64,000 nucleotides of DNA, taken from Mesorhizobium sp. L-2-11 (GTDB taxonomy: Bacteria; Pseudomonadota; Alphaproteobacteria; Rhizobiales; Rhizobiaceae). Positions 904 through 24,476 of this stretch are shown here, piece after piece. Position numbers and translations under genes: made by a program. The stretch spans positions 5,720,001-5,784,000 of the forward strand of contig NZ_AP023257.1 in NCBI RefSeq assembly GCF_016756595.1, read 5' to 3'. The notes beneath the pieces were generated by a model. The model did not search any database, was not told the DNA's origin, and saw only the letters and a program-made list of their open reading frames with translations. Within the stretch, counting starts at the first letter, position 1, and each line of letters starts with the position of its first letter.

Positions 904-1122
904 GCTTTTCTCCCATTGAACAACTGACTGACGATTCCCAGGGCGCGACCTTCTTCGAGGTCGACACCTGCTTGTTCAGACGTATACAACTGCCCTAGAC
1001 ATTGTGCAAGCGAAGATATAAAAACAACGGAAAATCGGTAATAATTCGTGGTCAAACCACAAATTGTTGCCCTAGTTGTGCACAATTTGAGAAAAACCAG
1101 CGTACCGGTAGGCAGGATTTCG
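904..1122. promoter_or_regulatory. Divergent control region between ehuB-like gene and M24/sox operon
   Basis: About 220 bp between two divergent transcription units, locally AT-richer than its surroundings. It holds a direct repeat TGCCCTAG at 991-998 and 1068-1075, each followed within a few bases by TTGTGCA. A perfect 10-bp palindrome TTGTGCACAA lies at 1076-1085, and an inverted repeat GTGGT-CAA-ACCAC at 1048-1060. Such paired sites fit a dimeric regulator acting on both genes. No regulator gene is adjacent inside the window. Confidence 0.5.
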
Positions 1123-2313: not shown

Positions 2314-2390
2314 CCATGACGGACGGGAAGCCGGTCACCGACGAAAGATCATGCCGGCAACGAAGCCGGCAATAAGCATGAGGACGCCTG

Positions 2391-3539: not shown

Positions 3540-3549
3540 GCCCGCACGC

Positions 3550-4806: not shown

Positions 4807-4819
4807 GAGGCGCAAGACA

Positions 4820-8557: not shown

Positions 8558-8597
8558 CGCCGCGGGTAGGAAAAGGACCAGGGCGCGAGCGCTCGTC

Positions 8598-9629
8598 TCA
8601 GGCGGCGCTCCACGGTCTTGCCCCTTGGATGATCTCTTGAGCGCGTACGGCAAAGCGACCGGCGAGAGGCGACATGCCGGCGGCATCGGCCGACACCGCG
8701 CTGCCTGCCCGCGCACGGTCGGCGATGCCGACGAAGATCACCGCGAAACGGAACAGCGAAAAAACCAGGTGGAAGCGTTGCAAGGGCGCAGTGGGTACGG
8801 CATGCGCGAAATAATGGTCGAGGAATTCGCGCTGACTTGGGATGCCGAGGGCGGCATGATCGAGGCCGAGGATGCCGCCATATTCGTCTGGAGTCGAATG
8901 CCAGGTCATCGAGCAAAAGCCGAGATCGGCGAGCGGATGGCCGATCGTCGACAGCTCCCAATCGAGAATGCCGATCACCTCCGGCTTATCGGGATGAAAC
9001 AGCAGATTTCCGAGGCGGAAGTCGCCATGGGCGATCGACACGCGCCCGTCGTCCGCGGGCATATGCTGCGGCAGCCAGTCGGCGACCGCTTCGAGTGCCG
9101 GAATACTGTCACTCGGCGATTGCCTGAGCTGTCTTGTCCAGCGGCCGATCTGGCGCTCGAAATAGTTGCCGGGCCGACCGTAGTCGCCGAGACCGACCGC
9201 GTCGGGACGGACAGCGTGCAATCTGGCCATCGCTTCGGCCATGCCGAAATAGATGCCGCGTCGCTCCGCGGGCGAAATGCCAGGCAGCGAACAGTCGTGG
9301 AAGACGCGACCATCCAGCCGCTCCATCAGGTAGAAAGCCGTGCCGAGCGGCTCGGCGCCGGCGTGATAGAGCACCGGCCTGGGCACCGGGACGTCGGTCG
9401 GTGCGAGCGCTTCAAGCACGCGGAACTCGCGGTCGACGGCATGCGCCCCGCTCAGAATCGGCCCGGCCGGCTTCTTGCGCAGCACCATGCGATGCGCACC
9501 ATAGTCGACGAAGTAGGTGGGATTGGACTGCCCGCCGCCGATCCGCTCGAGCGTCATTGCGGCATCGCCGAAGCGGTTCGCGAGAAAGTCCTTCAATGCC
9601 GCAGGATCGAAGTCCGCATTCAGCGGCAT
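8598..9629 (-). CDS. APH-fold small-molecule kinase, LvaA/ACAD10-N-terminal-like
   Basis: Aminoglycoside-phosphotransferase-fold protein, 343 aa. The ATG at 9629 follows AGGAGG at 6-bp spacing. Kinase landmarks: the Gly-rich region IGGGQSNPTYF (30-40), the catalytic loop HGDFRLGN with His201, Asp203 and Asn208, and the metal Asp223 in LDWE. The downstream part of an operon, it overlaps nothing but directly follows an acyl-CoA dehydrogenase. This pair matches the kinase and dehydrogenase halves of ACAD10/11 and bacterial LvaA/LvaC, which phosphorylate 4-hydroxyacyl-CoA and then eliminate phosphate. The role here is inferred from that parallel; antibiotic phosphorylation is unlikely. Confidence 0.8.
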   Translation of the reverse strand: MPLNADFDPAALKDFLANRFGDAAMTLERIGGGQSNPTYFVDYGAHRMVLRKKPAGPILSGAHAVDREFRVLEALAPTDVPVPRPVLYHAGAEPLGTAFYLMERLDGRVFHDCSLPGISPAERRGIYFGMAEAMARLHAVRPDAVGLGDYGRPGNYFERQIGRWTRQLRQSPSDSIPALEAVADWLPQHMPADDGRVSIAHGDFRLGNLLFHPDKPEVIGILDWELSTIGHPLADLGFCSMTWHSTPDEYGGILGLDHAALGIPSQREFLDHYFAHAVPTAPLQRFHLVFSLFRFAVIFVGIADRARAGSAVSADAAGMSPLAGRFAVRAQEIIQGARPWSAA

Positions 9630-9661
9630 CTTTTCCTCCTGAGACGCCACCGCGCGTCCCC

Positions 9662-10873
9662 TTACGCCTCGCCTTCGACGGTCCAGCGCCAAAAGCCCCT
9701 CTCCTCCTCGTTGAGGAAACGGTTCAGCACCATCTTGTGGACCTCATCGGCGCCATCGACCAGCCGCGCCTGGCGCGCATAGCGGTAGATCCATTCGAGC
9801 ACAGTGTCCTTGGAATAGCCCCGCGCGCCATTGATCTGGATCGCCACATCGGCCGCGTCATGCAGCACATTGGCGACCTGGACTTTGGCCATCGACACTT
9901 CCTTGCGGGCAAAGCCGCCGCGGTCCAGCTCCCACGCAGCCTTCATCACCAGGATGCGGCCGATCTCGATGCGCATTGCGAGGTCGCCGAGCTTCATCTG
10001 GACGCTTTCGCGGTCGGCGAGGCGCTGGCCGAAACCATAGCGCTCGGCAGCGTAGGCGCGCGCGATCTCGACGCAGCGCTTGGACAATCCAAGCCAGCGC
10101 ATGCAGTGGGTAAGCCGCGCCGGGCCGAGCCGCACCTGCGTCACCTTCATGCCCCTGCCCTCGCCAACCAGCATGTCTTCGACAGGTATTTTGAGCCCGT
10201 CAAATTCCAGCTCGCAATGCCCGCCATGCTCCTCCGGGCCCATGATCTCGATGCGGCGCGCAATGCGCCAGCCCGGCTGGTCCTTGTGGAACATCAGGGC
10301 CGACAGACCATGGCGCGGGTCGTCGGAGGTTCGCGCGATCAGAATGAAATGGCTGGCCTGCTGCGCGCCGGTGATGAACCATTTGCGGCCGGTCACGACA
10401 TATTTGTCGCCGCGCCGCTCAGCACGCGTCATGATCATCGAAGGGTCCGAGCCGCCGCCGGGGTGCGGTTCGGTCATGGCAAAGGCCGAGCGCACCTTGC
10501 CCTCGACAATCGGCTTCAGCCATTTTTCCTTCTGCGCCGGCGTGCCGAGCGCCTCCAGAACCATCATGTTGCCATCGTCGGGCGCCGCCGAATTGAACAC
10601 CACGGGTCCGAAGATCGACCGGTTCATCTCCTCGTAGCAGACCGCTATGTCGATCTTGCCGAGACCGGCGCCGCCGCTTTCCAGCTTGAGCTGCAGACAC
10701 CACAGGCCCGCCATCCGCGCCTTGGCGCGAAGCCCCTCCAGCAGCGGCAAGGCGATATTTCCATGCGCGTCATAGGACGTCTTGTCGGCCTCGAGCGGCA
10801 GGATTTCACGCTCGACGAAGTCGGCAATGCGGACGCGGTAATCTTCGGTGCGGGCGGGAATGTCGAAATTCAT
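9662..10873 (-). CDS. Acyl-CoA dehydrogenase, ACAD10/11 (LvaC)-like
   Basis: Acyl-CoA dehydrogenase of 403 aa. The ATG at 10873 is chosen (GGGAG upstream); it overlaps the stop of a short SMP-30 stub. Family segments: AMTEPHPGGGSDPSMI (substrate and flavin contact), YVVTGRKWFITGA, and the C-terminal GARGYSKDT and DGADEVHKMVLNRF, the last typical of the ACAD11 group. It probably works with the adjacent kinase on a 4-hydroxyacyl-CoA. The flavin contacts are seen as motif conservation only. Confidence 0.88.
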   Translation of the reverse strand: MNFDIPARTEDYRVRIADFVEREILPLEADKTSYDAHGNIALPLLEGLRAKARMAGLWCLQLKLESGGAGLGKIDIAVCYEEMNRSIFGPVVFNSAAPDDGNMMVLEALGTPAQKEKWLKPIVEGKVRSAFAMTEPHPGGGSDPSMIMTRAERRGDKYVVTGRKWFITGAQQASHFILIARTSDDPRHGLSALMFHKDQPGWRIARRIEIMGPEEHGGHCELEFDGLKIPVEDMLVGEGRGMKVTQVRLGPARLTHCMRWLGLSKRCVEIARAYAAERYGFGQRLADRESVQMKLGDLAMRIEIGRILVMKAAWELDRGGFARKEVSMAKVQVANVLHDAADVAIQINGARGYSKDTVLEWIYRYARQARLVDGADEVHKMVLNRFLNEEERGFWRWTVEGEA

Positions 10874-11016
10874 GGACAAGCTCCCAGCGATGAAACGAGG
10901 TGGCCGCCATCGATGGACGAGAAACTGCCGATCCAGTAGAGGCGCTCCTGTTCGACGTCCCACAATGGTCCCTCGCCCAGCGTGGTCTTCACGTCCACCA
11001 CGACTTCGATCTTCAT
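10870..11016 (-). pseudogene. 5' stub of an SMP-30/gluconolactonase-type gene
   Basis: A well-positioned AGGAGG precedes an ATG at 11016. The first 29 residues (MKIEVVVDVKTTLGEGPLWD...ERLYWI) match the first blade of SMP-30/LRE-family lactonases, normally about 290 aa. After that the reading frame ends within 19 residues. Its TGA overlaps the acyl-CoA dehydrogenase ATG. The simplest reading is an internal deletion that removed most of the gene and joined its start to the dehydrogenase. The translated stub could now act as a leader that couples the downstream gene. Confidence 0.7.
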
Positions 11017-11060
11017 GCCGTCCTCCTCTGTTGGCGCCGTGCAGTGATAGGCGAGCCGCC

Positions 11061-12023
11061 TCAGAACGCGACCTTGTCGCCGCCCTTCAATGACAGGATC
11101 TCGCGCGCCTCGTCGGGCGTCGCCACTTCCATGCCAAGGCCCTCGATGATCTTGCGGGCAAGCACCACCTGCTCGGCGTTCGATTTGGCAAGCTTGCCCT
11201 TGCCGGCCCAAAGACTGTCTTCGAGCCCGACGCGGATGTTGCCGCCAAGCGCTGCCGACTGCGCGGCAATGCGCAACTGACTGGCGCCGGCGCCGAGCAC
11301 CGACCAGCGAAACTGGTCGCCGAACAGCCGGTCGGCGGTGCGCTTCATATGGGCGACGTCTTCGGGATGCGTGCCGATGCCGCCAAGCAGACCAAACACC
11401 GACTGCACGAAGAACGGCGGCTTCACCAGCCCGCGGTCGGCGAAGTGCGAGAGGTTGTAGAGATGGGCGATGTCGTAGCACTCGAACTCGAAGCGGGTGC
11501 CGTTGTCGTAGCAGGTTTCAAGAATGTATTCGATATCCCTGAACGAGTTGCGGAAGACCAGGTCGCGCGTCGCTTCCAGATGCGGCTTTTCCCAGTCGAA
11601 CTTGAAAGTCTCGTATTTGTCGACGAGGTGATAGAGCCCGAAATTCATCGAGCCCATGTTGAGTGAAGCGACCTCAGGCTTGAACTCGGCAGCCGGGCGC
11701 ACGCGTTCCTCGACCTTCATGTAGGGACTGCCGCCAGTGGTGATGTTGATGGCGGCATTGGTGGCCTGCTTGATGCGCGGCAGGAAACGGGCGAAGGCCG
11801 CCGGCGTCTGGTCTGGCTTGCCGGTCTCGGGGTCGCGGGCATGCAGGTGCAGGATCGCCGCACCCGCCTCCGCCGCCGCGATCGCTTCGGAGGCGATCTG
11901 GTCCGGCGTGATCGGCAGATAGGGCGACATGGTCGGCGTGTGGATCGCCCCGGTCACCGCACAGGTGATGATAACCTTGCCTCTGGTCTGCGTAGCGCCG
12001 GGCTTGCGGCTTGTTTCCGTCAT
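11061..12023 (-). CDS. Beta-keto-acid cleavage enzyme (BKACE, Kce-like)
   Basis: TIM-barrel zinc enzyme of the BKACE (former DUF849) family, 320 aa from the ATG at 12023 behind AGGAG. Zinc ligands are visible in LHLHARDP (His59, His61), and the GLEDSLWAG block holds the family glutamate. Members condense a beta-keto acid with acetyl-CoA and release acetoacetate plus a new CoA ester. The ATGA overlap with the upstream dehydrogenase suggests that enzyme makes the keto acid. Possible substrates include dehydrocarnitine and 3-keto-5-aminohexanoate; the sequence alone does not decide. Confidence 0.88.
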   Translation of the reverse strand: MTETSRKPGATQTRGKVIITCAVTGAIHTPTMSPYLPITPDQIASEAIAAAEAGAAILHLHARDPETGKPDQTPAAFARFLPRIKQATNAAINITTGGSPYMKVEERVRPAAEFKPEVASLNMGSMNFGLYHLVDKYETFKFDWEKPHLEATRDLVFRNSFRDIEYILETCYDNGTRFEFECYDIAHLYNLSHFADRGLVKPPFFVQSVFGLLGGIGTHPEDVAHMKRTADRLFGDQFRWSVLGAGASQLRIAAQSAALGGNIRVGLEDSLWAGKGKLAKSNAEQVVLARKIIEGLGMEVATPDEAREILSLKGGDKVAF

Positions 12024-12967
12024 TGTCCGAACTCCTGATCCGATTTTTTCTTGTGCGCCGCCAGCGCCATCAGCCGGCGGTCGCGCCACACCTGCCGTTC
12101 GCGGAGGCTTTCCCGCGGCAGGTGCTTGCGGCGGTCGGCCTCTACCGTTTCGATGACCTCGCCGGCCCAGTCAACGCGGCGCTGCATCTGCGGAAAAATG
12201 TTGGAATAGATCGCTTGATAGCGCTCGACATAGTCGCGTACGCCGCCCGGCGCGTTGAGGTCGATCGTTTCGAACGGACCCATGAACGACCAGCGCAGCG
12301 CCAATCCGTCGCGAATGCCGATATCGACATCCTCGACGCTGGCATAGCCGTCGGCGACAAGGCGAAAAGCCTCCTCCAGCAGCGCGCCCTGCAGGCGGTT
12401 CATGATGAAGCCGTCGAGCTCGTGCTTCATCACCAGCGGCGCGTGGCCCGCATCGACGAGGAGGGCGCGTGTGCTTTCGATTGTTTCGGAAGAGGTCCAT
12501 GGCGCCGGCACGACTTCCGCGGCCGGGATGAGATAGGGCGGATTGATCGGATGCACGACCAGGCAGCGGTGCCGCCCGTGCAGATGGTCGGTGAACTTCG
12601 ACGGCAGCAACGCCGAGGTGGAACTGGCGATCACCGCTTGCGGACCGGCAACTGCATCGATCAGCGAGAACACCTCGCGCTTCACGCCGAGGATTTCGGG
12701 CGTGTTCTCCTGGATATGGACAGCATCGGCCAGCGCTTCTTCCAGCTCCGCAACGACGGCGATGCGACCAAGCACGGCGTCGATTGCCTGTCCCCGCAGC
12801 AGATCGTTCGCGGCGAGGTCGCCGAGCACGCCGGCGATATAATCATGTGCGCCGGTCGTCGCGGCCGGCGACTGGTCCCACATCCGCACGTCATGACCGG
12901 CGCGGGCAAAACTGATCGCCCAGGCCCGCCCGATGAACCCGCTGCCGACAATTGCTACTTTCACCAT
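12020..12967 (-). CDS. 3-hydroxyacyl-CoA dehydrogenase-family (lambda-crystallin/carnitine dehydrogenase-like)
   Basis: NAD-dependent dehydrogenase, 315 aa, starting at the ATG at 12967 (GAGGAG upstream). It has the Rossmann motif VAIVGSGFIGRAWA at 5-18 and the catalytic-region HPINPPYLIPAAEVV. The length and single-substrate architecture fit lambda-crystallin/L-gulonate dehydrogenase or L-carnitine dehydrogenase rather than fatty-acid oxidation. Coupled by ATGA to the BKACE gene, it likely oxidises a 3-hydroxy acid to the 3-keto acid that BKACE cleaves. Confidence 0.82.
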   Translation of the reverse strand: MVKVAIVGSGFIGRAWAISFARAGHDVRMWDQSPAATTGAHDYIAGVLGDLAANDLLRGQAIDAVLGRIAVVAELEEALADAVHIQENTPEILGVKREVFSLIDAVAGPQAVIASSTSALLPSKFTDHLHGRHRCLVVHPINPPYLIPAAEVVPAPWTSSETIESTRALLVDAGHAPLVMKHELDGFIMNRLQGALLEEAFRLVADGYASVEDVDIGIRDGLALRWSFMGPFETIDLNAPGGVRDYVERYQAIYSNIFPQMQRRVDWAGEVIETVEADRRKHLPRESLRERQVWRDRRLMALAAHKKKSDQEFGQ

Positions 12968-12978
12968 GGTCGGACTCC

Positions 12979-13800
12979 TCAAAGGGTTTCGACGTTGCCG
13001 TCGACGCCGAGCGACTGGCCGGAGATGTTGATCGCCGCATCGGACAACAGGAAGGCGACCATCGCGGCGACATCATAAGGGCTGGTCATGCGGCGCAGCG
13101 AGATATTCTGGAGATAGCGCTCCGTCATCTCCTCGTTCGACACACCGAGCTGCCTGGCCCGGTCGGCGATGACCTTGTCGATGCGTGGTCCTTCGACGAA
13201 TCCGGGCAGGATGGCATTGACCCTGATGCCGTGCGGCCCGAGTTCCTTGGCGAGGCTTTGCGTGAAACCGATGACGCCGAACTTGGCCGCCGAATAGGGG
13301 GTGCGAAAAGCGTAGCCGTGGCGGCCGGCGGCGGACGACATCGAGACGATCGAGCCGCCGCCCGCCGCCTTGATCAGCGGCACGGAACGCCGGGCGCAGA
13401 GGAACTGGCCGGTCAGGCAGATATCGATGCAGCGCCGCCAGTCCGCCGGATCGATTTCATCGACGCCGCCGGTCGGCCCGGCGATGCCGGCATTGTTGAC
13501 CAGCGCGTCGAGGCCGCCGAGCTTTTCCCTCACCGTCTCGAACAGCCGGTCGACGTCGTCTTCGCGCGAGACATCGGCCTTGACCGCGGCGACGAGGGCG
13601 ATCTTGTCCGGTGCAGCGGTCAGCGCCTCGTCGGAGACGTCGCAAACGACGATGCGCGCGCCGAGCCGCGACAGCGTGTCGGCAATGGCCAAGCCGATGC
13701 CGCCGGCACCCGCCGTCACCAGCACGCGCTGCCCCTTCAGCCCGGTCAGAAAATCGTCCGCCGATGACGGTGCCCCTTTACTTATCGCCGTCGCACTCAT
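12979..13800 (-). CDS. Short-chain dehydrogenase/reductase
   Basis: Classical SDR, 273 aa from the ATG at 13800 (GAAAGGA upstream). Cofactor motif TAGAGGIG at 29-36; NNAG at about 102-105; catalytic Ser156, Tyr169 and Lys173 (SSAAGRHGY...YSAAK). It is the first intact gene of a five-enzyme minus-strand operon. Substrate unknown; it probably oxidises an alcohol intermediate of the same pathway. Confidence 0.87.
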   Translation of the reverse strand: MSATAISKGAPSSADDFLTGLKGQRVLVTAGAGGIGLAIADTLSRLGARIVVCDVSDEALTAAPDKIALVAAVKADVSREDDVDRLFETVREKLGGLDALVNNAGIAGPTGGVDEIDPADWRRCIDICLTGQFLCARRSVPLIKAAGGGSIVSMSSAAGRHGYAFRTPYSAAKFGVIGFTQSLAKELGPHGIRVNAILPGFVEGPRIDKVIADRARQLGVSNEEMTERYLQNISLRRMTSPYDVAAMVAFLLSDAAINISGQSLGVDGNVETL

Positions 13801-13814
13801 CGTCCGGTCCTTTC

Positions 13815-13919
13815 TCATTGCAGCCGCCGTTCGAGCAGCGCCATGACAGCACCCAGAACGACCAGCCCGTACAGAATTGCCCTTGTCGCATAGGGCAGCT
13901 GAAATAGTGACGAAAGCAT
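13815..13919 (-). pseudogene. Possible C-terminal remnant of an ABC permease
   Basis: Between the SDR and the cupredoxin gene the minus strand reads a 34-residue hydrophobic peptide (MLSSLFQLPYATRAILYGLV, then VLGAVMALLERRLQ, then stop). It looks like the last membrane helix and tail of a ribose-type permease. The rest of the gene is absent. It could instead be a genuine one-helix small membrane protein; there is no clear ribosome site. Confidence 0.35.
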
Positions 13920-14049
13920 TGCCCGCGGGTAACTTGGCGAGCAAAGGCAGCTGCTCGGGCACGCCAGACTTTCGAATTTCCGGTAAGCCGCCATGGATTT
14001 GCATTGATCTCCACGACGAAGCCATAGCGCGGGCTTGCTCGCGTAGGCC

Positions 14050-14874: not shown

Positions 14875-15546
14875 TCAGCTGTTGCGAAGAGTCTGTTGCG
14901 CAATTCGCCAGGCCTGCTCCACATGCCGGCGGGCCGCGACTTCGGCTTCATCGCCGTTGCGCGACTTGATGGCGTTCATGATGTCGGTCATTTCGGCAAT
15001 TGCGGCATCGCGGCGGTCTACCGAAGCAATGGTCATGGAACGCAGTTGGTTGATGCGGACGTTCAGGCCCTGGACGATCTCCCAGGCGATGCGCTTGTCG
15101 GCGGCATCGAAAAGCACCTCGTAGAATTTTGTCGTCGCCCGCATCACCTCGATCGGATTGGCTGAGGCCCACGCCGTGAGCAGCACATTGAATGCACGCT
15201 CAAGCGCAGCGATCTGGTCCTCAGTCGCCGTCAGTGCGCAGGCGCGCGCCGCGATGCCCTCCATCAGGGCGCGCAGTTCATAAATCTCGTCGGTGCGGCT
15301 GAGATCCGGCCGGGCCACGGCGGGTCCGTGGCCCGGTATCATCTGGACCAGGCCCTCAGTCTCCAACTGCCGCAGAACTTCGCGCACCACCGAGCGACTG
15401 ACGCCGAGCTGGTCGCAAAGCGGCCGCTCGACCAGCCGTTCGCCGGGCTGGAAGTGAAATCCCATGATCGCGTCGCGCATGCGCTCCAGCGCCAGCGTTC
15501 TCAGCGTCTTGGCGGATCGTTCGATCCTCAGTGTGTCGTCGGCCAA
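14875..15546 (-). CDS. GntR/FadR-family transcriptional regulator
   Basis: FCD-type GntR regulator, 223 aa from a TTG at 15546 preceded by GGAAGGTGAT. A longer reading from a TTG at 15615 would abut the operator and has no ribosome site. N-terminal winged helix-turn-helix: GFHFQPGERLVERPL...GVSRSVVREVLRQLETEGLV. The C-terminal all-helical FCD domain has FY where many members have the metal-binding FH, so metal binding may be weakened. It is divergent from the AA_synth/monooxygenase operon, with a perfect palindrome between them. It is probably the repressor of that operon and responds to its substrate. Confidence 0.88.
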   Translation of the reverse strand: MADDTLRIERSAKTLRTLALERMRDAIMGFHFQPGERLVERPLCDQLGVSRSVVREVLRQLETEGLVQMIPGHGPAVARPDLSRTDEIYELRALMEGIAARACALTATEDQIAALERAFNVLLTAWASANPIEVMRATTKFYEVLFDAADKRIAWEIVQGLNVRINQLRSMTIASVDRRDAAIAEMTDIMNAIKSRNGDEAEVAARRHVEQAWRIAQQTLRNS

Positions 15547-15618
15547 TTCATCACCTTCCCAGCATCCGCAAACAAACAGATTCGATGATCCGTTGACAAG
15601 GGATTTGGTCTTCAATAG

Positions 15619-15632
15619 TATGGTATACCATA
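15619..15632. promoter_or_regulatory. GntR operator candidate (14-bp perfect palindrome)
   Basis: TATGGTATACCATA is a perfect palindrome about 64 bp upstream of the AA_synth start and about 73 bp upstream of the preferred gntR start. Its core TGGTATACCA fits the TGGTnn-type inverted sites bound by FadR-subfamily GntR proteins. The position suits control of both divergent promoters. Confidence 0.72.
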
Positions 15633-15695: not shown

Positions 15696-16283
15696 ATGAA
15701 GCCGGCCATCCGAAAGATCGTCACCCATATCGAGAACACGCTGATAGAAGGCGGCAAGGCGGCTCCCCGGCCGCTGCGCCTGATCGGCGTGGCGGCAGTG
15801 CTCGACAATCCGTGGGCCGGACGCGTTTTCACCGAGGACCTTTCTCCCGAGATCCGCGCCTATGCGCCGGTTCTGGGGGAGATGCTGACCCATGAAATCC
15901 TCGCAGTCGCCGGATCCGGCGAAGCGATCGAAGGCTACGGCAAGGCCGCAATCTGCGGCACATCGGGCGAGATCGAGCATGCCTCGGCGCTCATCCACAC
16001 GCTGCATTTCGGCAACCACTATCGGCGTGCCGTCGGCGCCAAGACCTATCTTGCCTTCACCAACCTGCGCGGCGGTCCGAACACGCCGATCATGATCCCG
16101 CTCATGGACAAGAACGACGAAGGCCGGCGTTCGCATTACCTGACGGTGCATTTCCAGATCGGCGACGCGCCGGCGCCGGACGAGCTGGTGGTGGCGCTTG
16201 GCGCCTCGATCGGCGGGCGACCGCATCATCGCATCGGCGACCGCTACCAGGATCTCAAGGAGGTCGGCGACCTGCATGGCTGA
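15696..16283 (+). CDS. AA_synth (PF06684/DUF1185)-family protein
   Basis: Protein of 195 aa starting at ATG 15696 behind CGAGG. It belongs to the poorly characterised amino-acid-synthesis family; the pattern LDNPWAGRV followed by EAIEGYGKAAICGTSGEIEH and HYLTVHFQIGDAP-like segments is typical. No catalytic residues are established for the family that can be verified here. It opens the catabolic operon and overlaps the downstream fusion gene by 8 bp, so it probably takes part in the same ring-opening or hydrolytic pathway. Confidence 0.75.
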   Translation: MKPAIRKIVTHIENTLIEGGKAAPRPLRLIGVAAVLDNPWAGRVFTEDLSPEIRAYAPVLGEMLTHEILAVAGSGEAIEGYGKAAICGTSGEIEHASALIHTLHFGNHYRRAVGAKTYLAFTNLRGGPNTPIMIPLMDKNDEGRRSHYLTVHFQIGDAPAPDELVVALGASIGGRPHHRIGDRYQDLKEVGDLHG

Positions 16284-18069
16284 GCTGGCGGACCATGGCT
16301 GGCATCGCGGAACGGCGCCTGACGGCACCGGCTACATCCGTGCCGGTTCCGGCGCGCCGGTCCTGCTCATCCACGGCGTCGGCATGAATGCCTCGATCTG
16401 GGCACCGCAGATCGAGCTGATGAAAAACAGATGGGATATCATCGCCATCGACATCCTGGGACACGGCCAGTCGCCGTTGCCGCCCGAGGACGCCAGCCTT
16501 GCCGACTATGCCGGACAGGCGATCCGGCTTCTCGATCATCTTGGCCTGGATGCCGTCTCGATTGTCGGCCATTCGATGGGGGCGCTGGTCGGGCAGGAAA
16601 TCGCTCTCGACGCACCCGAACGGGTCCGCAGCATCGTGTCGCTCAACGCGGTCTTTCGCCGCCCGGCGGAGCTTGCGCAGGCAGTACGCGAGCGCGCCGC
16701 CGAATTGAATGGCGCGGAAAACCCGTCGGGGACGGACGCAACGATCGCGCGCTGGTTCGGCAATCCGATCCCCGACAGCCTGGCCGAAGCCGCAACGACG
16801 ACGCGCGCGGCACTGCAAAGCGTCAACTCCGAAGGCTATGCGCGCACCTATCGACTTTTCGCCCATGCCGATGCGGCGCATGGCGATCGTCTCTCCGGTC
16901 TCGCGGTGCCGGCCCTGTTCATGACCGGCTCGCAGGACAGGAATTCGTCACCTGCGATGTCGGCGGCGATGGCCCGCCTCGCGCCGCGCGGTCGCTGCGT
17001 CGTTCTGGACGGCGAACGACATATGATGGCCGTAGCCTCGCCTGACGTGGTCACACGGCGCATTGCCGACTTTCTCGAGAGCAACGACGGCGCAAGCACA
17101 TCGGTGCGCCCGGCAATGGACACAGCCTTCGACGCGGGCGAATTCAGGCGGGCGCTCGGTTCCTTCCTGACCGGCGTTACCATCGTCACCGCGATCGGGC
17201 CAGAGGGAGAGCCTCGAGGCTTCACCGCCAATTCGTTTACATCCGTTTCGCTCGATCCGCCGCTTGTTCTGGTCTGCATCGCCAAGAAAGCGCTGGGTCA
17301 TCCGGTGTTTTCGACCTCGAAGTGCTTTGCCATCAACGTGCTCTCGGAGGAACAGCGAGCCGCGTCCGGCGTCTTCGCTTCGAAATCGCAGGACAAGTTC
17401 TCGGCTGTCGAGTGGCGGTTCGGCCCGACCGGCAGTCCGCTGCTCGCTGGATCGGTGGCTACGTTTGACTGTGACATGGAGCAGTTGGTCGATGCCGGCG
17501 ACCATTCGATCCTCATCGGCCGCGTTCGCGAATTCTCCCACAATTCATCGCAGCCCCTCGGCTATTGCCGTGGGGCGTATGTCTCGCCCGGTCTCAGCCA
17601 GGAAGCGCTGGCGGCGGCGCCTCCGGACATGGAGGTCGGCGCGATCCTCGAAGATGAAGGCCGCGTGCTGTTCTTCGAAACCGTCGACGGCTTTTTCGAG
17701 TTGCCGGCGGGCCGAGGACTCGGGACGCCCGGCGACACGCAAAGCCTCAAGGGACGCCTCGCCGCGAAAGCTGTCGACGCCCATCTCGGATTCCTGTTTG
17801 CGGTCTGGGACGACGCCGCAAATCCATCGCGAACACATGTCTACTACCGCGGCACGGTAGCCGCGCCCCACTCCAGCGATGGCCAAGTCCGGCTCGTCGA
17901 CATCGACAGGATTGCCGGACTGAACATCGCCGACGCTGCTGTGCGCTCGATGCTCGCCCGCTATGTTCGCGAATGTCGGGAGGATGCGTTCGGAGTCTAT
18001 GTCGGCAACGAAGTCGAAGGCGAAGTCCGTCCGCTCGCCAAGCCGGTATCCATGAACACTTCGGGGTGA
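16276..18069 (+). CDS. Alpha/beta hydrolase - flavin reductase - Nudix-like fusion
   Basis: Continuous 597-aa reading frame with three recognisable parts. Residues 20-268 are an alpha/beta hydrolase with nucleophile Ser100 (GHSMG), Asp221 (SQDRN) and His249 (ERHMM). Residues 286-435 are a RutF/HpaC-type flavin reductase (FLTGVTIVTA, GFTANSFTSVSLDPPLVLVCI, FAINVLS, GCD-like FDCDMEQ). Residues 452-560 resemble a degenerate Nudix fold (GAILEDEGRVLFFE, FFELPAGRG) without the catalytic Nudix box. The reductase should supply reduced flavin to the luciferase-like enzyme encoded 6 bp downstream, and the hydrolase could process its product. The start at 16276 overlaps the upstream stop by 8 bp. Fusion of these domains is unusual. 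Confidence 0.82.
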   Translation: MAELADHGWHRGTAPDGTGYIRAGSGAPVLLIHGVGMNASIWAPQIELMKNRWDIIAIDILGHGQSPLPPEDASLADYAGQAIRLLDHLGLDAVSIVGHSMGALVGQEIALDAPERVRSIVSLNAVFRRPAELAQAVRERAAELNGAENPSGTDATIARWFGNPIPDSLAEAATTTRAALQSVNSEGYARTYRLFAHADAAHGDRLSGLAVPALFMTGSQDRNSSPAMSAAMARLAPRGRCVVLDGERHMMAVASPDVVTRRIADFLESNDGASTSVRPAMDTAFDAGEFRRALGSFLTGVTIVTAIGPEGEPRGFTANSFTSVSLDPPLVLVCIAKKALGHPVFSTSKCFAINVLSEEQRAASGVFASKSQDKFSAVEWRFGPTGSPLLAGSVATFDCDMEQLVDAGDHSILIGRVREFSHNSSQPLGYCRGAYVSPGLSQEALAAAPPDMEVGAILEDEGRVLFFETVDGFFELPAGRGLGTPGDTQSLKGRLAAKAVDAHLGFLFAVWDDAANPSRTHVYYRGTVAAPHSSDGQVRLVDIDRIAGLNIADAAVRSMLARYVRECREDAFGVYVGNEVEGEVRPLAKPVSMNTSG

Positions 18070-18075
18070 ACAGAT

Positions 18076-19128
18076 ATGAAGTTCTCGCTCTTCGTCCACA
18101 TGGAACGCTCGGACCCGGCAAAGCCGCATGCCGAGCTCATCGACGAGCTCGAGGAGTTGGTCCTGATGGCCGAGGCGGCAGGCTTCGAGACGGCCTGGAT
18201 CGGCGAACACCACGGTATGGAGTTCACCATCTCGCCAAACCCGTTCATCAACATCGCCTATCTCGGCGCCCGGACGAAGCGCATCCGGCTTGGCACAGGA
18301 ACCGTCATCGCGCCGTTCTGGCATCCGATCAAGCTCGCCGGCGAAGCAGCCATGACCGATGTCGTCACGGGCGGCCGGCTCGACATCGGCATCGCGCGCG
18401 GCGCCTACAGCTATGAATACCAGCGCCTGTTCCCGGGGCTCGACGCCTGGGGCGCCGGCCAGCGCATGCGCGAGATCATCCCCGCCATCAAGGGCCTTTG
18501 GCAGGGCGACTTCGAGATGTCCGGGGAGTTTTGGTCGTTTCCCTCGACCACCTCGTCGCCCAAGCCGGTGCAAAAACCGCACCCGCCGATCTGGGTGGCG
18601 GCGCGCGATCCGAACTCGCATGACTTCGCCGTGTCCAACGGCTGCAACGTTCAGGTGACGCCGCTCGCCTCGGGCGATGATGAAGTAACCAGCCTGATGG
18701 AGCGCTTCAACGCGGCGTGCGCGGCGCATCCGGCCATGGCCCGCCCCGAGATCATGCTGCTGATGCACACATTCGTTGCCGAAGACGCCGCCGATGCGGA
18801 GCAGCTGACGAAGGACCTGTCGCTGTTTTACTGCCAGTTCGGCGCGTGGTTCCAGAACAAGAAGCCGGTTCGCCAAGGAATTTTGGAAGCGCTCACCGAC
18901 GACGAGATCGCGGCCATGCCGCAATACGCGCCGGGAAAAATCCGACAGAACCTGGTCATCGGTGAGGCCGAAGAGGTGATCACCCGGCTGAAGGCATATG
19001 AGGCGCTCGGCTATGACCAGTACTCGATCTGGATCGACAGCGGTCTGCCACACGGGCGCAAGAAGAAGTCGCTGCAGCTGTTCGTCGACAAGGTGATGCC
19101 GGCCTTCGGGCATGGGAGGCCGCAATGA
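18076..19128 (+). CDS. LLM-class (bacterial luciferase-like) flavin monooxygenase
   Basis: Luciferase-like TIM-barrel oxygenase, 350 aa. Characteristic segments: FETAWIGEHHG near 35-45, IRLGTGTVIAPFWHP, DVVTGGRLDIGIARGAY and PHPPIWVAARDP. These enzymes use FMNH2, here presumably made by the reductase domain of the neighbouring fusion, to oxygenate an organic substrate. Overlaps the aldehyde dehydrogenase start by 4 bp. RutA is a distant functional parallel. Confidence 0.88.
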   Translation: MKFSLFVHMERSDPAKPHAELIDELEELVLMAEAAGFETAWIGEHHGMEFTISPNPFINIAYLGARTKRIRLGTGTVIAPFWHPIKLAGEAAMTDVVTGGRLDIGIARGAYSYEYQRLFPGLDAWGAGQRMREIIPAIKGLWQGDFEMSGEFWSFPSTTSSPKPVQKPHPPIWVAARDPNSHDFAVSNGCNVQVTPLASGDDEVTSLMERFNAACAAHPAMARPEIMLLMHTFVAEDAADAEQLTKDLSLFYCQFGAWFQNKKPVRQGILEALTDDEIAAMPQYAPGKIRQNLVIGEAEEVITRLKAYEALGYDQYSIWIDSGLPHGRKKKSLQLFVDKVMPAFGHGRPQ

Positions 19129-20600
19129 CCCTTGTGGCCTTCAGCAACTTCATAGATGGGGCGTTCGATACGCCGACCGCCACCTTCGAAAGCACCGATC
19201 CGTCCACCGGAGCGCCCTGGGCTACGATGCCGGCTGCAACCGAAGCCGACGTCGACCGCGCCGTCGAGGCGGCGCACCGGACGCTGCACTCGGCCGCGTG
19301 GGCATCCCTGACGGCGACCGCCCGCGGCAAGCTGCTGGTGCGCCTCGGCGAACTGGTCGTCGCCAATGCCGACCGCCTGGCGGAGCTGGAAACGCGCGAC
19401 ACCGGCAAGATCATCCGCGAGACCCGCGCCCAGATCGCCTATGTCGGCGACTACTATCGCTACTATGGCGGGCTTGCCGACAAGCACGAAGGCTCGCATC
19501 TGCCGATCGACAAGGCCGATATGGACGTCACCATCCGGCGCGAGCCGATCGGCGTCGTCGCTGCCGTCGTGCCGTGGAATTCGCAGCTCTTCCTTTCGGC
19601 CGTCAAGCTCGGTCCGGCACTGGCCGCCGGCTGCACGGTCGTCCTGAAAGCCTCGGAAGACGGCCCGGCACCGCTGCTGGCCTTCGCCGAACTCGTCTAC
19701 GAGGCCGGATTTCCCGCCGGAAGCGTCAACATACTGACCGGGTTCGGGCTCGATTGCGGCCGACGCCTGACAAGTCACCCGCTGGTGTCACGCGTCGCCT
19801 TCACCGGCGGACCTTCGACCGCTCGCGCGATCGTCCGCAACACGGCGGAAAATCTCGCCTACACGACGCTCGAGCTGGGCGGGAAAAGCCCGGTTGTGGT
19901 TTTCGCCGACGCAGACTTGGACAGTGCGGCAAACGCGGTCGTCGCCGGAATTTTCGCAGCGTCTGGACAAAGCTGCGTCGCCGGCTCGCGCCTGCTTGTC
20001 GAGCGTTCGATAAAAGCCGAGTTCCTCGGCAGGCTGAAGCACAAGGCCGAGGCCATCAAAATTGGTGATCCGCAGGATCCGGCCACCGAAATGGGACCGC
20101 TGGCAACGCCACGTCAGCGGGAATGGATCGAGAAGATCGTTGCCGAGAGCCTCGCCACGGGCGGGACGCTGGTCACCGGTGGAAAAAGGCCGGACGAGCA
20201 TTCGCGCGGCTTCTACTACGCACCGACCATCATCGACGCCGAGGATACAGCGCTGCCTTGCGTGCGGGAGGAATTGTTCGGTCCGGTGCTCAGCGTTCTC
20301 GCCTTCGACACGGAAGCCGAAGCATTAGCGCTTGCCAACGACACGCCGTTCGGCCTGGCCTCGGGCGTGTTCACCACCAATCTCGCCAGGGCGCACCGCA
20401 TGGCGCGCGACATTCATGCCGGCGTCGTCTGGGTCAACACGTACCGCGCCGTTTCGCCGCTCGTGCCATTCGGCGGCTATGGTCAGTCCGGGCTCGGACG
20501 TGAGGGCGGGCTCGACGCCATCCGCGATTACACGCGCTCGAAATCCGTCTGGATACGGATATCCGACGAGCCAATCCCGGACCCGTTCGTCATGCGGTGA
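19125..20600 (+). CDS. NAD(P)-dependent aldehyde dehydrogenase
   Basis: Full-length 491-aa aldehyde dehydrogenase with Asn152 (PWNSQ), general base Glu250 (LELGGKSP) and catalytic Cys284 (GQSCVAGSR). It is coupled by ATGA to the monooxygenase, so it likely oxidises an aldehyde released by oxygenation or ring opening. Substrate cannot be read from the sequence. Confidence 0.92.
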   Translation: MTLVAFSNFIDGAFDTPTATFESTDPSTGAPWATMPAATEADVDRAVEAAHRTLHSAAWASLTATARGKLLVRLGELVVANADRLAELETRDTGKIIRETRAQIAYVGDYYRYYGGLADKHEGSHLPIDKADMDVTIRREPIGVVAAVVPWNSQLFLSAVKLGPALAAGCTVVLKASEDGPAPLLAFAELVYEAGFPAGSVNILTGFGLDCGRRLTSHPLVSRVAFTGGPSTARAIVRNTAENLAYTTLELGGKSPVVVFADADLDSAANAVVAGIFAASGQSCVAGSRLLVERSIKAEFLGRLKHKAEAIKIGDPQDPATEMGPLATPRQREWIEKIVAESLATGGTLVTGGKRPDEHSRGFYYAPTIIDAEDTALPCVREELFGPVLSVLAFDTEAEALALANDTPFGLASGVFTTNLARAHRMARDIHAGVVWVNTYRAVSPLVPFGGYGQSGLGREGGLDAIRDYTRSKSVWIRISDEPIPDPFVMR

Positions 20601-20666
20601 AGGCAGCGTCAATCGCGCAATTTCATAAAAAACAAGAAACAAAAACAACCAACAGAGGAGAATGAC

Positions 20667-21671
20667 ATGAAACTGATTTTGACCGGCATTTTGGCCGGAC
20701 TCTTGGCAGCCACTGCCGCACGGGCCGATGAAATGGTGTTCACCAGCTGGGGCGGGACCACCCAGGAGGCGCAGACCAAATCCTGGGCTGCTCCGTTCGA
20801 AGCGAGTTCCGGCATCAAGGTCCTGCAGGACGGCCCGACCGACTACGGCAAGCTGAAGGCCATGGTGGAGGGCGGCAGCGTCGCCTGGGACGTCGTCGAT
20901 GTCGAAATGGATTTCGCCATCAAGGCGGCCAAGGACGGCCTGCTCGAGCCGATCGACTTCAACGTTGTGCCGAAAGCCGATCTCGATCCTCGCTTCACCA
21001 CCGACCATGCGGTCGGCAGCTTTTACTATTCCTTCGTTCTTGCCTGGAACAAAGGCGCGGTGTCGGGCGAACCGGCGGGCTGGGCCGACATGTTCGACCT
21101 GGCGAAATTTCCCGGCAAGCGCACCTTCTACAAGTGGTCGGCGCCGGGCGTCATCGAAATCGCGCTGCTGGCCGACGGCGTGCCTGCAGACAACCTCTAT
21201 CCGCTCGACCTCGACCGGGCGTTCAAGAAACTCGACACGATCAAATCGGAAATCGTCTGGTGGGACAGCGGCGCGCAGTCGCAACAGCTGATCGCTTCCG
21301 GTGAAGCAGCCTTCGGGCAGCTCTGGAACGGACGTGTCTTCGCTCTCGAGCAGGAAGGCGCCGATGTCGGCGCATCCTGGAATCAGAACCTGACCGCCGC
21401 CGACGTGCTCGTCATCCCCAAGGGTTCGAAGAACAAGGTGAGCGCGATGAAATTCCTGGCCGCTGCGACAAGCCCGAAAAGCCAGGCCATGTTTGCTGAA
21501 GCAAGCGGCTACGCCCCCATCAACACGGCAGCCAAGGCCGAAATGCCGGCCGATGTCGTCAAGTCGCTGCCGGACGCCTATGTCGACGGGCAGATCAACC
21601 TCGACATGAACTACTGGGCTGAAAACCGCGATAAGATCGCGGAACGCTGGTACGCCTGGCAGGCCAAATAG
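20667..21671 (+). CDS. Polyamine/opine-type ABC transporter substrate-binding protein
   Basis: Family-1 solute-binding protein of the PotD/F type, 334 aa, with a signal peptide cleaved near ARA-DE. Motifs: VFTSWGGTTQEAQTK at the mature N-terminus, YGKLKAMVEGGSVAWDVVDVE, and a C-terminal NYWAENRDKIAERWYAW typical of this clade. First gene of the importer. Ligand probably a small amine or nitrogen heterocycle used by the enzymes upstream. Confidence 0.9.
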   Translation: MKLILTGILAGLLAATAARADEMVFTSWGGTTQEAQTKSWAAPFEASSGIKVLQDGPTDYGKLKAMVEGGSVAWDVVDVEMDFAIKAAKDGLLEPIDFNVVPKADLDPRFTTDHAVGSFYYSFVLAWNKGAVSGEPAGWADMFDLAKFPGKRTFYKWSAPGVIEIALLADGVPADNLYPLDLDRAFKKLDTIKSEIVWWDSGAQSQQLIASGEAAFGQLWNGRVFALEQEGADVGASWNQNLTAADVLVIPKGSKNKVSAMKFLAAATSPKSQAMFAEASGYAPINTAAKAEMPADVVKSLPDAYVDGQINLDMNYWAENRDKIAERWYAWQAK

Positions 21672-21693
21672 AAGCCGACCTCACCCATGAACC

Positions 21694-21719
21694 GGCGGGG
21701 CGTCGCCAGGCGTCCCGCC
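21694..21719 (+). promoter_or_regulatory. Intercistronic stem-loop after the binding-protein gene
   Basis: GGCGGGGCG (21694-21702) pairs with CGTCCCGCC (21711-21719) across an 8-base loop, with one G-U pair. Such hairpins between binding-protein and permease genes stabilise or attenuate the transcript so that the binding protein is made in excess. Confidence 0.55.
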
Positions 21720-21740
21720 TGAGCTGCCGGGATCATCGCC

Positions 21741-22601
21741 ATGTCGGGCAATTTGCTTCATCGACAGCCAATCCTCCGAAGGCCAGATGGCATCGGCGGC
21801 GCCTTGCCGGCGCTAACTCTTGTCGCCCTGTTCTTCGTGGTGCCGGTTGTTGCGCTGCTGTTGCGCAGCGTGACCGAACCCGTGCCGGGCCTGCACAACT
21901 ACGCCACCCTGTTTGGCGACGGCACCTATACGCGGGTCTTCTTCAACACCTTTCTGGTCGCCACCGTCGTCACCGCCGTCACCATCATCGTGGCGTTTCC
22001 GGTCGCCTGGATGCTGGCGATCATGCCGCCCGCCCTCGGCTCGATCGTATTCGGCATCATCATCCTGTCGATGTGGACCAATCTGCTCACCCGCACCTAC
22101 GCCTGGATGGTGCTGCTTCAACGCACCGGCGTCATCAACCGGACGCTGATGGATATCGGCCTGATCAGCGAGCCGCTGCCGCTGATCAACAACCTGACCG
22201 GCGTCACCATCGGCATGGTCTACATTATGCTGCCATTCATGATACTGCCACTGGTCGGAACCCTGCGCGCCATCGATCCGATGACGCTGCGCGCCGCCGC
22301 CCTTTGCGGCGCGAGCCCCTTCGAGGCCTTCCGCCGCATCCTGCTGCCATTATCGCTCCCCGGAATCGCTGCAGGCGGCCTGATGGTTTTCGTCATGTCG
22401 CTCGGCTATTTCGTGACACCGACGCTGCTCGGCGGCACCTCCAACATGATGCTCGCCGCAATGATCGCCCAGATGATCCAGTCCTTGCTCAACTGGGGGC
22501 TCGGAAGTGCTGCGGCTTTCATCCTGCTTGTGGTCACCATGGCGCTCTACGCGCTGCAGCTGCGCCTCGTCGGCGCCAAGCGCATGACAGGAGGCATCTG
22601 A
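21741..22601 (+). CDS. ABC transporter permease, PotB-like
   Basis: Inner-membrane permease of 286 aa with about six helices. The EAA loop AAALCGASPFEAFRRILLPLSLPGI (about 185-209) contacts the ATPase. First of two permeases of the polyamine-type importer, separated from the binding-protein gene by a hairpin. Confidence 0.9.
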   Translation: MSGNLLHRQPILRRPDGIGGALPALTLVALFFVVPVVALLLRSVTEPVPGLHNYATLFGDGTYTRVFFNTFLVATVVTAVTIIVAFPVAWMLAIMPPALGSIVFGIIILSMWTNLLTRTYAWMVLLQRTGVINRTLMDIGLISEPLPLINNLTGVTIGMVYIMLPFMILPLVGTLRAIDPMTLRAAALCGASPFEAFRRILLPLSLPGIAAGGLMVFVMSLGYFVTPTLLGGTSNMMLAAMIAQMIQSLLNWGLGSAAAFILLVVTMALYALQLRLVGAKRMTGGI

Positions 22602-22602
22602 G

Positions 22603-23403
22603 ATGCTGCTCGACTACGATCGGCTGGGCTGGCTGCGTGCAGCACTGCTGGGTTTCACCGGCCTGGTTGCGGCGTTTCTGCTGCTGCCGGTGGTTTTCAT
22701 CGTGCTTTTGTCGTTCGGCTCGTCGCGGTGGTTGGCTTTTCCGCCGCCAAGCTGGACGCTGAAATGGTATGGGGAACTCTTCGCCGATCCGGCGTGGCTC
22801 GAAGCGGCGCTGACCAGCGCGCGCATTGCTGCCATGGCTGCGCTTCTTGCCGTCGTCATCGGGCTGCTGGCTTCCTTCGCCCTGGTCAGGGGACAGTTTC
22901 GCGGGCGCAACGTGCTTCGCGGCCTGCTGCTGACGCCAATGGTGCTGCCGGTCGTGGTCTTCGCCATCGCCATCTATGCATTCTTCCTGCGGATCGGGCT
23001 CGGCGGCACCACGGCAGGCTTCGTCATCGCCCACACCGTCCTGGCACTGCCCTTCGCCATCATTCCGATCACCGCGGCACTCGAAGGTTTCGACAAATCC
23101 ATCGAGGATGCGGCGATCGTCTGCGGCGCAGGCCCATTCGAGGCAAAACTCCGGGTGACCTTGCCGGCGATCAAGATCGGGATTTTTTCGGCGGCGATCT
23201 TCGCCTTTCTCGCCTCATGGGACGAGGTGGTGGTCGCGATCTTCATGGCCAGCCCCACCTTGCAGACCCTGCCGGTCAAGATCTGGGGCAGCCTGCGCCA
23301 GGATCTCAGCCCGGTCATCGCCGCGGCCTCCAGCCTTCTCGTTCTTCTGACGCTGAGCCTGATGGTCGTAACCGCACTCATTCGGCGGAAATTGTCGAAA
23401 TGA
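22603..23403 (+). CDS. ABC transporter permease, PotC-like
   Basis: Second permease, 266 aa, six predicted helices. The EAA loop reads DAAIVCGAGPFEAKLRVTLPAI. It starts 1 bp after the first permease and overlaps the ATPase start by ATGA, indicating a stoichiometric complex. Confidence 0.9.
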   Translation: MLLDYDRLGWLRAALLGFTGLVAAFLLLPVVFIVLLSFGSSRWLAFPPPSWTLKWYGELFADPAWLEAALTSARIAAMAALLAVVIGLLASFALVRGQFRGRNVLRGLLLTPMVLPVVVFAIAIYAFFLRIGLGGTTAGFVIAHTVLALPFAIIPITAALEGFDKSIEDAAIVCGAGPFEAKLRVTLPAIKIGIFSAAIFAFLASWDEVVVAIFMASPTLQTLPVKIWGSLRQDLSPVIAAASSLLVLLTLSLMVVTALIRRKLSK

Positions 23404-24476
23404 CCGAACCGTTCCTCTCTATTCGCGACCTGCGCAAGGCGTTCGGCAGCTTCGTCGCCGTTCACGATGTCACGATCGATATTCCCAAGGGCGAATTCCT
23501 GACCTTTCTCGGCCCTTCCGGCTCTGGCAAATCGACGACGCTCTACGCGATCGCCGGCTTTCAGCAACCGACATCCGGCGACGTTCTTCTTGAAGGCGGG
23601 TCGCTGCTGTCGGTGCCGTCGCACAAGCGCAACATCGGCATGGTGTTCCAGCGCTACACGCTGTTCCAGCATCTGACCGTCGCCGAGAACGTTGCGTTTC
23701 CATTGCGCGTGCGCCGCCGGCCGGACGCCGAGGTGAACCGAAAGGTCACCGAGATGCTGTCGCTGGTGCGGCTCGAGAGTTTCGGCGGCCGATATCCCGG
23801 CGCGCTTTCCGGCGGACAGCAGCAGCGCGTGGCGCTTGCCAGGGCGCTCGCCTACGATCCGCCGATCCTCCTGATGGACGAGCCGCTTTCGGCGCTCGAC
23901 AAGAAGCTGCGCGAGGAGATCCAGGCCGAGATACGGCGCATCCATCGCGAAACCGGCGTAACGATCCTTTACGTCACCCACGATCAGGACGAGGCCCTGC
24001 ATCTTTCGGATCGCATCGCCCTGTTTCAGGACGGGCGCATCGAGCAGATCGGCACCGGTGAGGACCTCTATCTGAGACCTCAGAGCGAATTCGTGGCCAG
24101 CTTCATCGGAAATTCCAATTTCCTGCCGGCCGAGCATCTTGAAACCGTCAACGGCGCCGCCACGATCCGCCTCGCCGATGGCTCGGTCGTCTCCGGCGTC
24201 AGGAACGATCAGGACTTCAGCCAAGGCCAGAAGACCCGGCTGATGGTGCGGCCAGAAGCGTTTCGGCTGCGGCCCGGCCCGGCCACTGCCGGGCTTGCGG
24301 TCGAATTCATCGACACCGCCTTCTTCGGCGAGCGGCGGCGCGTCATCGCGCGCACCGCCGCCGGCCAGGAGATCGACGTCAGGCCGACATCCGACATGGC
24401 GCATGCACAGGAAGGCATCGCCTCAAACAGACAGATTTATTTCGATCCCGCCGCCGCATTTCTCTTTCCCGCCTGA
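23400..24476 (+). CDS. ABC transporter ATPase, PotA-like
   Basis: ATP-binding subunit, 358 aa from the ATG at 23400. Walker A GPSGSGKST, Q-loop MVFQRYTLFQ, signature LSGGQQQRV, Walker B ILLMDEP, switch His in YVTHDQDEA, then a C-terminal TOBE domain (from about 270). A longer upstream extension of this frame is out of frame with the permease and is not coding. Last gene of the operon. Confidence 0.92.
   Translation: MTEPFLSIRDLRKAFGSFVAVHDVTIDIPKGEFLTFLGPSGSGKSTTLYAIAGFQQPTSGDVLLEGGSLLSVPSHKRNIGMVFQRYTLFQHLTVAENVAFPLRVRRRPDAEVNRKVTEMLSLVRLESFGGRYPGALSGGQQQRVALARALAYDPPILLMDEPLSALDKKLREEIQAEIRRIHRETGVTILYVTHDQDEALHLSDRIALFQDGRIEQIGTGEDLYLRPQSEFVASFIGNSNFLPAEHLETVNGAATIRLADGSVVSGVRNDQDFSQGQKTRLMVRPEAFRLRPGPATAGLAVEFIDTAFFGERRRVIARTAAGQEIDVRPTSDMAHAQEGIASNRQIYFDPAAAFLFPA

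Follow-up and report, generated by a model that had tools for sequence, protein, structure and literature searches.

The degradation pathway of the plant alkaloid trigonelline (N-methylnicotinate), encoded by tgnABCDEF, was reportedly described by Perchat et al. in 2018 from Acinetobacter baylyi ADP1. Excerpts of two further papers credit TgnA and TgnB with opening the trigonelline ring (PMC8269262) and describe the AA_synth-type protein HcdD as homologous to TgnF (PMC7913881). On a plasmid of Acinetobacter sp. PK01, a GntR regulator gene diverges from genes for an AA_synth protein, a hydrolase, tgnA, tgnB and tgnC (the NCBI names) and a permease, with a succinate semialdehyde dehydrogenase (SSADH) further on. 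Here we compare these systems with an operon in a 64,000-nucleotide stretch of the 7.4-Mb genome of Mesorhizobium sp. L-2-11, hereafter called the window. It is a real, conserved catabolic operon of a known pathway type; its lineage is divergent and has a fused enzyme. We hold with good confidence that it serves trigonelline degradation of the tgn type. The assignment rests on the parts, their order, an operator and homology; its importer would, by extension, take up a zwitterionic betaine.

The core order is the same in the window and in the PK01 operon, and the proteins pair off at 39% identity for GntR, 63% for the AA_synth protein, 37% for the hydrolase, 38% for TgnA, 60% for TgnB and 65% for TgnC. 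The luciferase-like monooxygenase (LLM) of the window aligns with the named TgnB over 344 residues, as a TgnB-type oxygenase should, and its flavin reductase aligns over 302 columns with the named TgnA, including the presence of a C-terminal domain. By its identity to the named tgnC product, called (Z)-2-((N-methylformamido)methylene)-5-hydroxybutyrolactone dehydrogenase at NCBI, the aldehyde dehydrogenase (ALDH) is of the TgnC type, and the AA_synth protein, a member of PF06684 (DUF1185), is of the TgnF type. The hydrolase is presumably the counterpart of TgnD, as we take that protein to be named. A relative of the window LLM at 98% identity carries the JGI name flavin-dependent trigonelline monooxygenase, a name that NCBI gives to Acinetobacter proteins; the window LLM itself is 97% identical to the LLMs of named Mesorhizobium sp. 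and up to 98% identical to those of other genomes of the genus.

The first-pass annotation, made from the DNA letters, had seen in these genes a credible undescribed pathway and had proposed a neighbourhood survey. The core order AA_synth, hydrolase, reductase, LLM and ALDH recurred across genera, which is more than chance, and it was found on plasmids of Mesorhizobium, Phyllobacterium, Rhizobium, Falsirhodobacter (where the reductase gene is absent from the gene table but was found by tblastn) and Burkholderia. At the Burkholderia locus, the genes of the ATP-binding cassette (ABC) importer are located elsewhere, and at the Rhizobium leguminosarum locus the GntR gene is not divergent. The claim of novelty did not hold, as the gene set agrees with the trigonelline pathway in parts and order. 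The annotation had itself named a match to an assigned pathway as the finding that would count against it, and for the enzymes, with counterparts of TgnA, TgnB, TgnC, TgnD and TgnF, such a match exists. What does stand is that the operon is compact, oxidative and catabolic and has an importer of its own, with a nitrogen-containing ring as a probable target.

The operon extends on the plus strand from the ATG at 15696, which we take as the AA_synth start (the list of open reading frames gives TTG 15693), to the stop of the ABC ATPase gene at 24476. Its features are the following:

14875..15615, minus strand: GntR/FCD regulator, TgnR-like (PF00392 and PF07729); the true start may be internal to the open reading frame
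15593..15621, plus strand: sigma-70-like site TTGACA-N17-TAGTAT (consensus scan, 10/12 matches)
15619..15632, strandless: operator, a perfect palindrome, TATGGTATACCATA, with its core ATGGTATACCAT at 15620-15631
15696..16283, plus strand: AA_synth/DUF1185 protein, TgnF-like (Pfam PF06684, E 2e-67)
16276..18069, plus strand: fused three-domain protein (Pfam, open-frame, structure and conserved-column comparisons)
~16276-17097, plus strand: alpha/beta hydrolase domain of the fused protein, TgnD-like
~17098-17586, plus strand: flavin reductase domain of the fused protein, TgnA-like
~17605-18066, plus strand: Nudix-fold domain of the fused protein (predicted structure)
18076..19128, plus strand: LLM, TgnB-like, outside the named-TgnB clade (Pfam 6e-60)
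19125..20600, plus strand: ALDH, TgnC-like (Pfam 1.4e-159; 65% to the named tgnC)
20667..21671, plus strand: solute-binding protein (SBP) of the family of Atu4243, which binds the signal molecule gamma-aminobutyric acid (GABA) (4eq7 match, 3.4e-140)
21741..22601, plus strand: ABC permease, PotB-like (PF00528)
22603..23403, plus strand: ABC permease, PotC-like (PF00528)
23400..24476, plus strand: ABC ATPase, from ATG 23400 (PF00005 and PF08402; Pfam run on the longer open reading frame)

From the AA_synth gene to the ATPase gene, the intergenic distances are -8, +6, -4, 66, 69, 1 and -4 bp, and with gaps of -8 to 69 bp co-transcription as a single transcript is plausible. The coordinates of the first-pass annotation are exact, and all parts that it had named were recovered by Pfam: the AA_synth protein, the fusion of hydrolase and flavin reductase in a single protein, the LLM, the ALDH, the polyamine-type importer (an SBP, two permeases and an ATPase of the PotABC type) and the divergent GntR/FCD gene. 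The Nudix-fold domain, the operator palindrome and the sigma-70-like site are additions to it.

The operator ties the window to the other operons. With at most 2 mismatches, its core was present within 400 bp upstream of 93 of the 98 AA_synth genes that have enough upstream sequence, the window's own copy (locus L001) included (0.011 in shuffled sequence); it was not found at L010, L011, L042, L048 and the second AA_synth copy in L059. Within the 64 kb, the window operator is the sole match with at most 1 mismatch, and all 16 Agrobacterium loci carry it, with 1 mismatch, just upstream of AA_synth. The -10 of the sigma-70-like site overlaps the palindrome; three such sites were found in the region where 1.5 were expected. 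Although the TTGACA of this promoter recurs in L003 and L093, a -35-like hexamer at the same distance accompanies just 33 of the 94 operators (0.026 by chance), so the promoter is not general. The window regulator, for its part, is ~46% identical to the GntR protein near the Agrobacterium tgn operon.

The window operon nevertheless belongs to a lineage of its own. In an LLM tree of 138 rows (quick method, no bootstrap, midpoint root), the named Acinetobacter TgnB falls with the copies of Sinorhizobium meliloti, Rhizobium, Burkholderia and enterobacteria in a clade of 98 rows, which we call canonical, with a support of 100 in the SH-like approximate likelihood ratio test (SH-aLRT). The window LLM belongs to a clade of 33 rows (SH-aLRT 97) with Mesorhizobium, Azospirillum and others; second copies of Caballeronia and P0116 likewise lie outside the canonical clade. 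Against 10 to 14 canonical representatives that we chose ourselves, the mean identity between window and canonical proteins, followed by that within the canonical set, is 63 versus 74% for the LLM, 67 versus 72% for the ALDH, 69 versus 75% for the AA_synth protein, 39 versus 51% for the reductase, 39 versus 56% for the hydrolase, 66 versus 73% for the SBP, 68 versus 73 and 74% for the permeases, 58 versus 61% for the ATPase, and 45 versus 50% for GntR. Fixed differences from the canonical operons number 0 in the AA_synth protein (over 69 shared conserved columns), 3 in the hydrolase, 4 in the reductase, 5 in the ALDH, and 0 and 1 in the permeases. In the hydrolase, S100, D221 and H249 are conserved in both kinds and would form the Ser-Asp-His triad of a TgnD-type enzyme.

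The fusion of hydrolase and reductase is annotated as a single gene in L003 and L093. At each of the 33 Mesorhizobium window-type loci tested, two of which come from the genome of the window itself, hydrolase and reductase domains share one open frame, as they do at four further loci; at 83 loci they occur in separate frames only. For Paracoccus and Leisingera we do not claim a fusion: an open frame spans both domains in L036, L044, L045 and L095, but in L095 the reductase is annotated as a gene of its own. The last domain of the fused protein has no Pfam match and is predicted to fold as a Nudix domain (mean predicted local distance difference test score 84.8; the best Foldseek matches are Nudix hydrolases), and no Nudix box was seen in it by eye. 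Among solved structures, the nearest relative over the full length is SMa0793 of S. meliloti (3rh7), which the window reductase with its C-terminal domain matches over 10-315. By a full-length match of 688 bits, SMa0793 is the reductase encoded in the tgn operon of pSymA.

Whether the divergence extends to the substrate can be judged from the oxygenase pocket. We compared 33 window-type with 98 canonical LLM rows, with a column counted as conserved when at least 93% of each set have the same residue, and found 127 shared conserved columns and 8 fixed differences. Sixteen pocket positions were mapped via a luciferase alignment, using what we take to be the luciferase pocket residues. Fifteen of them do not vary across the 131 rows; at the sixteenth, every canonical row and 29 of the 33 window-type rows have T. 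None of the 8 fixed differences falls in the mapped pocket. As the pocket columns agree, the window LLM probably has the substrate of canonical TgnB; on this alignment that is most likely, not proven.

Both kinds of oxygenase meet in Caballeronia, where four loci (L079, L083, L089 and L090) hold a window-like and a canonical set arranged divergently. The window-like copies have P196 changed to S at one mapped pocket position, and the canonical arm lacks a reductase of its own and, in L083, a hydrolase as well. In the fetched stretches of these loci, GntR, ABC and SSADH were each seen once, with no second set. Given these shared parts, the two arms probably share intermediates. In Mesorhizobium, an LLM match at E<=1e-60 occurs in 94 of 146 genomes (rows counted by hand), with the window type in 81 (in G014 only as two contig-edge fragments), the canonical type in 2 and a third type of 43-46% identity alone in 11. 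Window and canonical types occurred together in none of the 146 genomes, where ~1.1 were expected by chance, and we dropped co-occurrence as a substrate test because such a count is uninformative. Among 385 alphaproteobacterial genomes drawn as a sample, an LLM passes E<=1e-100 in 14; it is nearer to the window type in 2 of these (the window's own and G411), and none of the 14 has both types.

Some further arrangements were met on the way. The third LLM type (41-46%) occurs at L010 and L011 and in 35 of the 146 Mesorhizobium genomes, together with AA_synth, ALDH and hydrolase genes and other ABC types. At 55 of the 127 conserved columns, several of which are pocket columns, L010 or L011 or both have another residue, and no tgn operator was found upstream of the AA_synth gene at these two loci; this LLM type probably belongs to another heterocycle or amide pathway. 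Five Paraburkholderia and Burkholderia loci (L032, L038, L057, L071 and L094) combine a canonical operon with a divergent window-like flavin reductase (53-55%), which adjoins ABC genes in all except L057 and is accompanied by a window-like hydrolase in L032 and L038. A plasmid of Acinetobacter venetianus and Pantoea eucrina encode LLMs that are 100% identical (L007 and L012), pointing to either recent transfer or a mislabelled record.

The importer leads to Agrobacterium. The best solved match of the window SBP, at 67% identity, is Atu4243, to which the SBPs of the S. meliloti and R. leguminosarum tgn operons are 85% identical. The window type (4/4 rows) and the canonical SBPs (at least 95% of 38 rows) have 148 conserved columns in common and 0 fixed differences, and Atu4243 keeps all 148. 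R223 and D246 of the window SBP are conserved, as expected within this family, and align with two GABA-contact residues of Atu4243, which we take to be Arg203 and Asp226. Atu4243 homologs (E<=1e-100) were found in 16 of the 39 Agrobacterium genomes searched and stand beside a tgn core in all 16, although the SBP gene looks broken in G157. In G154, which resembles Agrobacterium fabrum, a 100% match lies within the tgn operon (L137, 491-15742) as, by our count, the eleventh gene after GntR, with operators after GntR and before AA_synth; this spacing fits Atu4232 (GntR) and Atu4243 (SBP). An excerpt of PMC3907764 describes Atu4243 as highly specific for GABA and atu4243 as totally repressed by the Atu4232 protein, with its derepression unexplained. 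We infer that Atu4232 is the tgn repressor, with trigonelline or an intermediate as its signal. Taking this a step further, we tentatively propose, as an idea that falls a little short of an even chance, that Atu4243, so far seen as a sensor and importer selective for GABA, and its kin belong to the trigonelline regulon with Atu4232 as TgnR, that trigonelline or a related pyridinium betaine is a native ligand and GABA a look-alike zwitterion, and that the window operon represents this system in a second lineage. In a search of open-licence PMC papers, none that joins Atu4243 and trigonelline was found. In S. meliloti, the genes SMa0799-803 are named a putrescine uptake system and counted among the transport genes essential for symbiosis in TnSeq work (excerpt of PMC7268258); judging from the locus numbers and from SMa0793 as the operon's reductase, they probably encode the ABC importer of the tgn operon on pSymA.

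Several observations weigh against trigonelline as the substrate. The clade of named TgnB does not include the window LLM, and the hydrolase and reductase of the window are only 37-38% identical to those of Acinetobacter, where the within-canonical means are 56 and 51%. Our reference is Acinetobacter sp. PK01, as the A. baylyi tgn genes were not found by name, and the solved kin of the window SBP is described as GABA-binding. The window operon has no SSADH gene, and it has no NIPSNAP gene either, nor was a relative of one found in the genome in a search run without a positive control. According to an excerpt of PMC4207669, wild-type S. meliloti grows on trigonelline as sole carbon source and a strain without pSymA does not; S. 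meliloti 2011 pSymA does carry a canonical tgn operon (L009), but the phenotype spans a 1.35-Mb replicon and not this operon alone. Ruegeria pomeroyi is reported to grow less effectively on homarine than on trigonelline, a passage suggesting that related betaines may need separate enzymes (excerpt of PMC8269262), and the paired oxygenases of the four Caballeronia loci could stand for two substrates. This last point favors a sister pathway with the same chemistry acting on another N-substituted pyridinium betaine, such as homarine, N-methylnicotinamide or similar, as do the position of the window LLM and the clear divergence of hydrolase and reductase. We nevertheless think this unlikely, since agreement with the canonical operons extends to 15 of the 16 mapped pocket columns and to every one of the 148 conserved SBP columns, the operator is common to both, and the incomplete canonical arms in Caballeronia suggest shared intermediates.

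An operon for the uptake and use of GABA or polyamines, with the ring-opening enzymes secondary, would fit the 67% identity to a reportedly GABA-specific SBP and the putrescine label on SMa0799-803. Yet GABA can be used without an LLM, a flavin reductase, an N-formyl hydrolase or an AA_synth protein, and it is these enzymes that form the conserved core, with or without ABC genes, which makes this account very improbable. A true Rut-like pyrimidine or uracil pathway has next to nothing in its favor beyond fold: as the first-pass annotation had noted, RutA, RutD and RutF have analogs here, in the form of an LLM-type two-component flavin mononucleotide (FMN) oxygenase, an alpha/beta hydrolase and a flavin reductase. 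It had also set the operon apart from Rut, correctly so, as the Pfam families of RutB and RutC are both missing among the operon proteins and the LLM matches RutA at only E 1.6e-4 (PDB set), compared with 60% identity to the named tgnB. For RutD and RutF, whose models have cut-offs of 238.5 and 254.75, the scores reach 80.7 and 95.4 bits, and the best 25 of 29 models for the LLM do not include one for RutA. With no Rut model near its cut-off among the matches listed and the Tgn match much closer, Rut membership was rejected, and Rut proved a poor comparison.

For trigonelline, the steps could be as follows. The ABC importer would take up the betaine, the reductase domain would supply reduced FMN (FMNH2), and the LLM would use it with O2 to open the N-methylpyridinium ring. 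The ALDH would oxidize the ring-opened (N-methylformamido)methylene product, and the hydrolase domain would cleave the N-formyl enamide, releasing succinate semialdehyde, methylamine and formate; the role of TgnD and the remaining pathway chemistry are said to come from Perchat et al. (2018). Elsewhere in the source genome, the best SSADH-like protein is a 60% relative, and a gamma-glutamylmethylamide synthetase scores above its model cut-off, so both succinate semialdehyde and methylamine would have a possible outlet; these housekeeping enzymes, the latter perhaps taking the methylamine, would complete the route. In line with what is reported for TgnF, the AA_synth protein would act as an accessory helper. 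GntR may repress from the palindrome over the -10 until released by the substrate or an intermediate, and the Nudix-fold domain may, as a guess, sense the substrate and gate the reductase.

Set against the described systems, the window shares with tgnABCDEF, as represented by PK01, five enzyme kinds, the core order, the operator and the divergent GntR, and differs by its LLM clade, the fusion of hydrolase, reductase and Nudix-fold domain, the missing SSADH gene, and an Atu4243-type ABC importer in place of a cytosine-permease-type transporter. The tgn operons of S. meliloti pSymA, R. leguminosarum and A. fabrum have the same core and the same kind of importer but, unlike the window, separate hydrolase and reductase genes and a canonical TgnB; the Agrobacterium stretches also contain a NIPSNAP gene (15/16) and an SSADH gene (11/16), both of which the window operon lacks. 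The hcd cluster for 7-hydroxycoumarin of P. mandelii 7HK4 likewise has a DUF1185/AA_synth protein, HcdD, which is compared with TgnF; in the excerpted part of that paper, its partners in hcdDEFG are an alcohol dehydrogenase, a cupin and an FMN reductase, and no LLM is named (PMC7913881).

To the left of the operon (34-14025), the window encodes an EhuB-like SBP, two DoeA-like M24 proteins, sarcosine oxidase alpha and beta family proteins, a BKACE enzyme and a 3-hydroxyacyl-CoA dehydrogenase, resembling betaine or compatible-solute catabolism. A second AA_synth gene, 37% identical, lies elsewhere in the source genome (G000:C1:510633-511169). Rfam gave no match at gathering scores in the window, and a tRNA-Arg called by ARAGORN at 22644-22733, within a permease gene, is probably false.

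In short, an apparently unknown pathway becomes a named one, with a single compound as the starting point for growth and induction tests, and the ring-opening oxygenase gains a second lineage that comes with a fused hydrolase-reductase. Trigonelline is a legume betaine, so it can be tested directly as ligand and inducer of these systems. The main interest lies in the placement of a structurally solved Agrobacterium GABA-binding protein inside a trigonelline operon.

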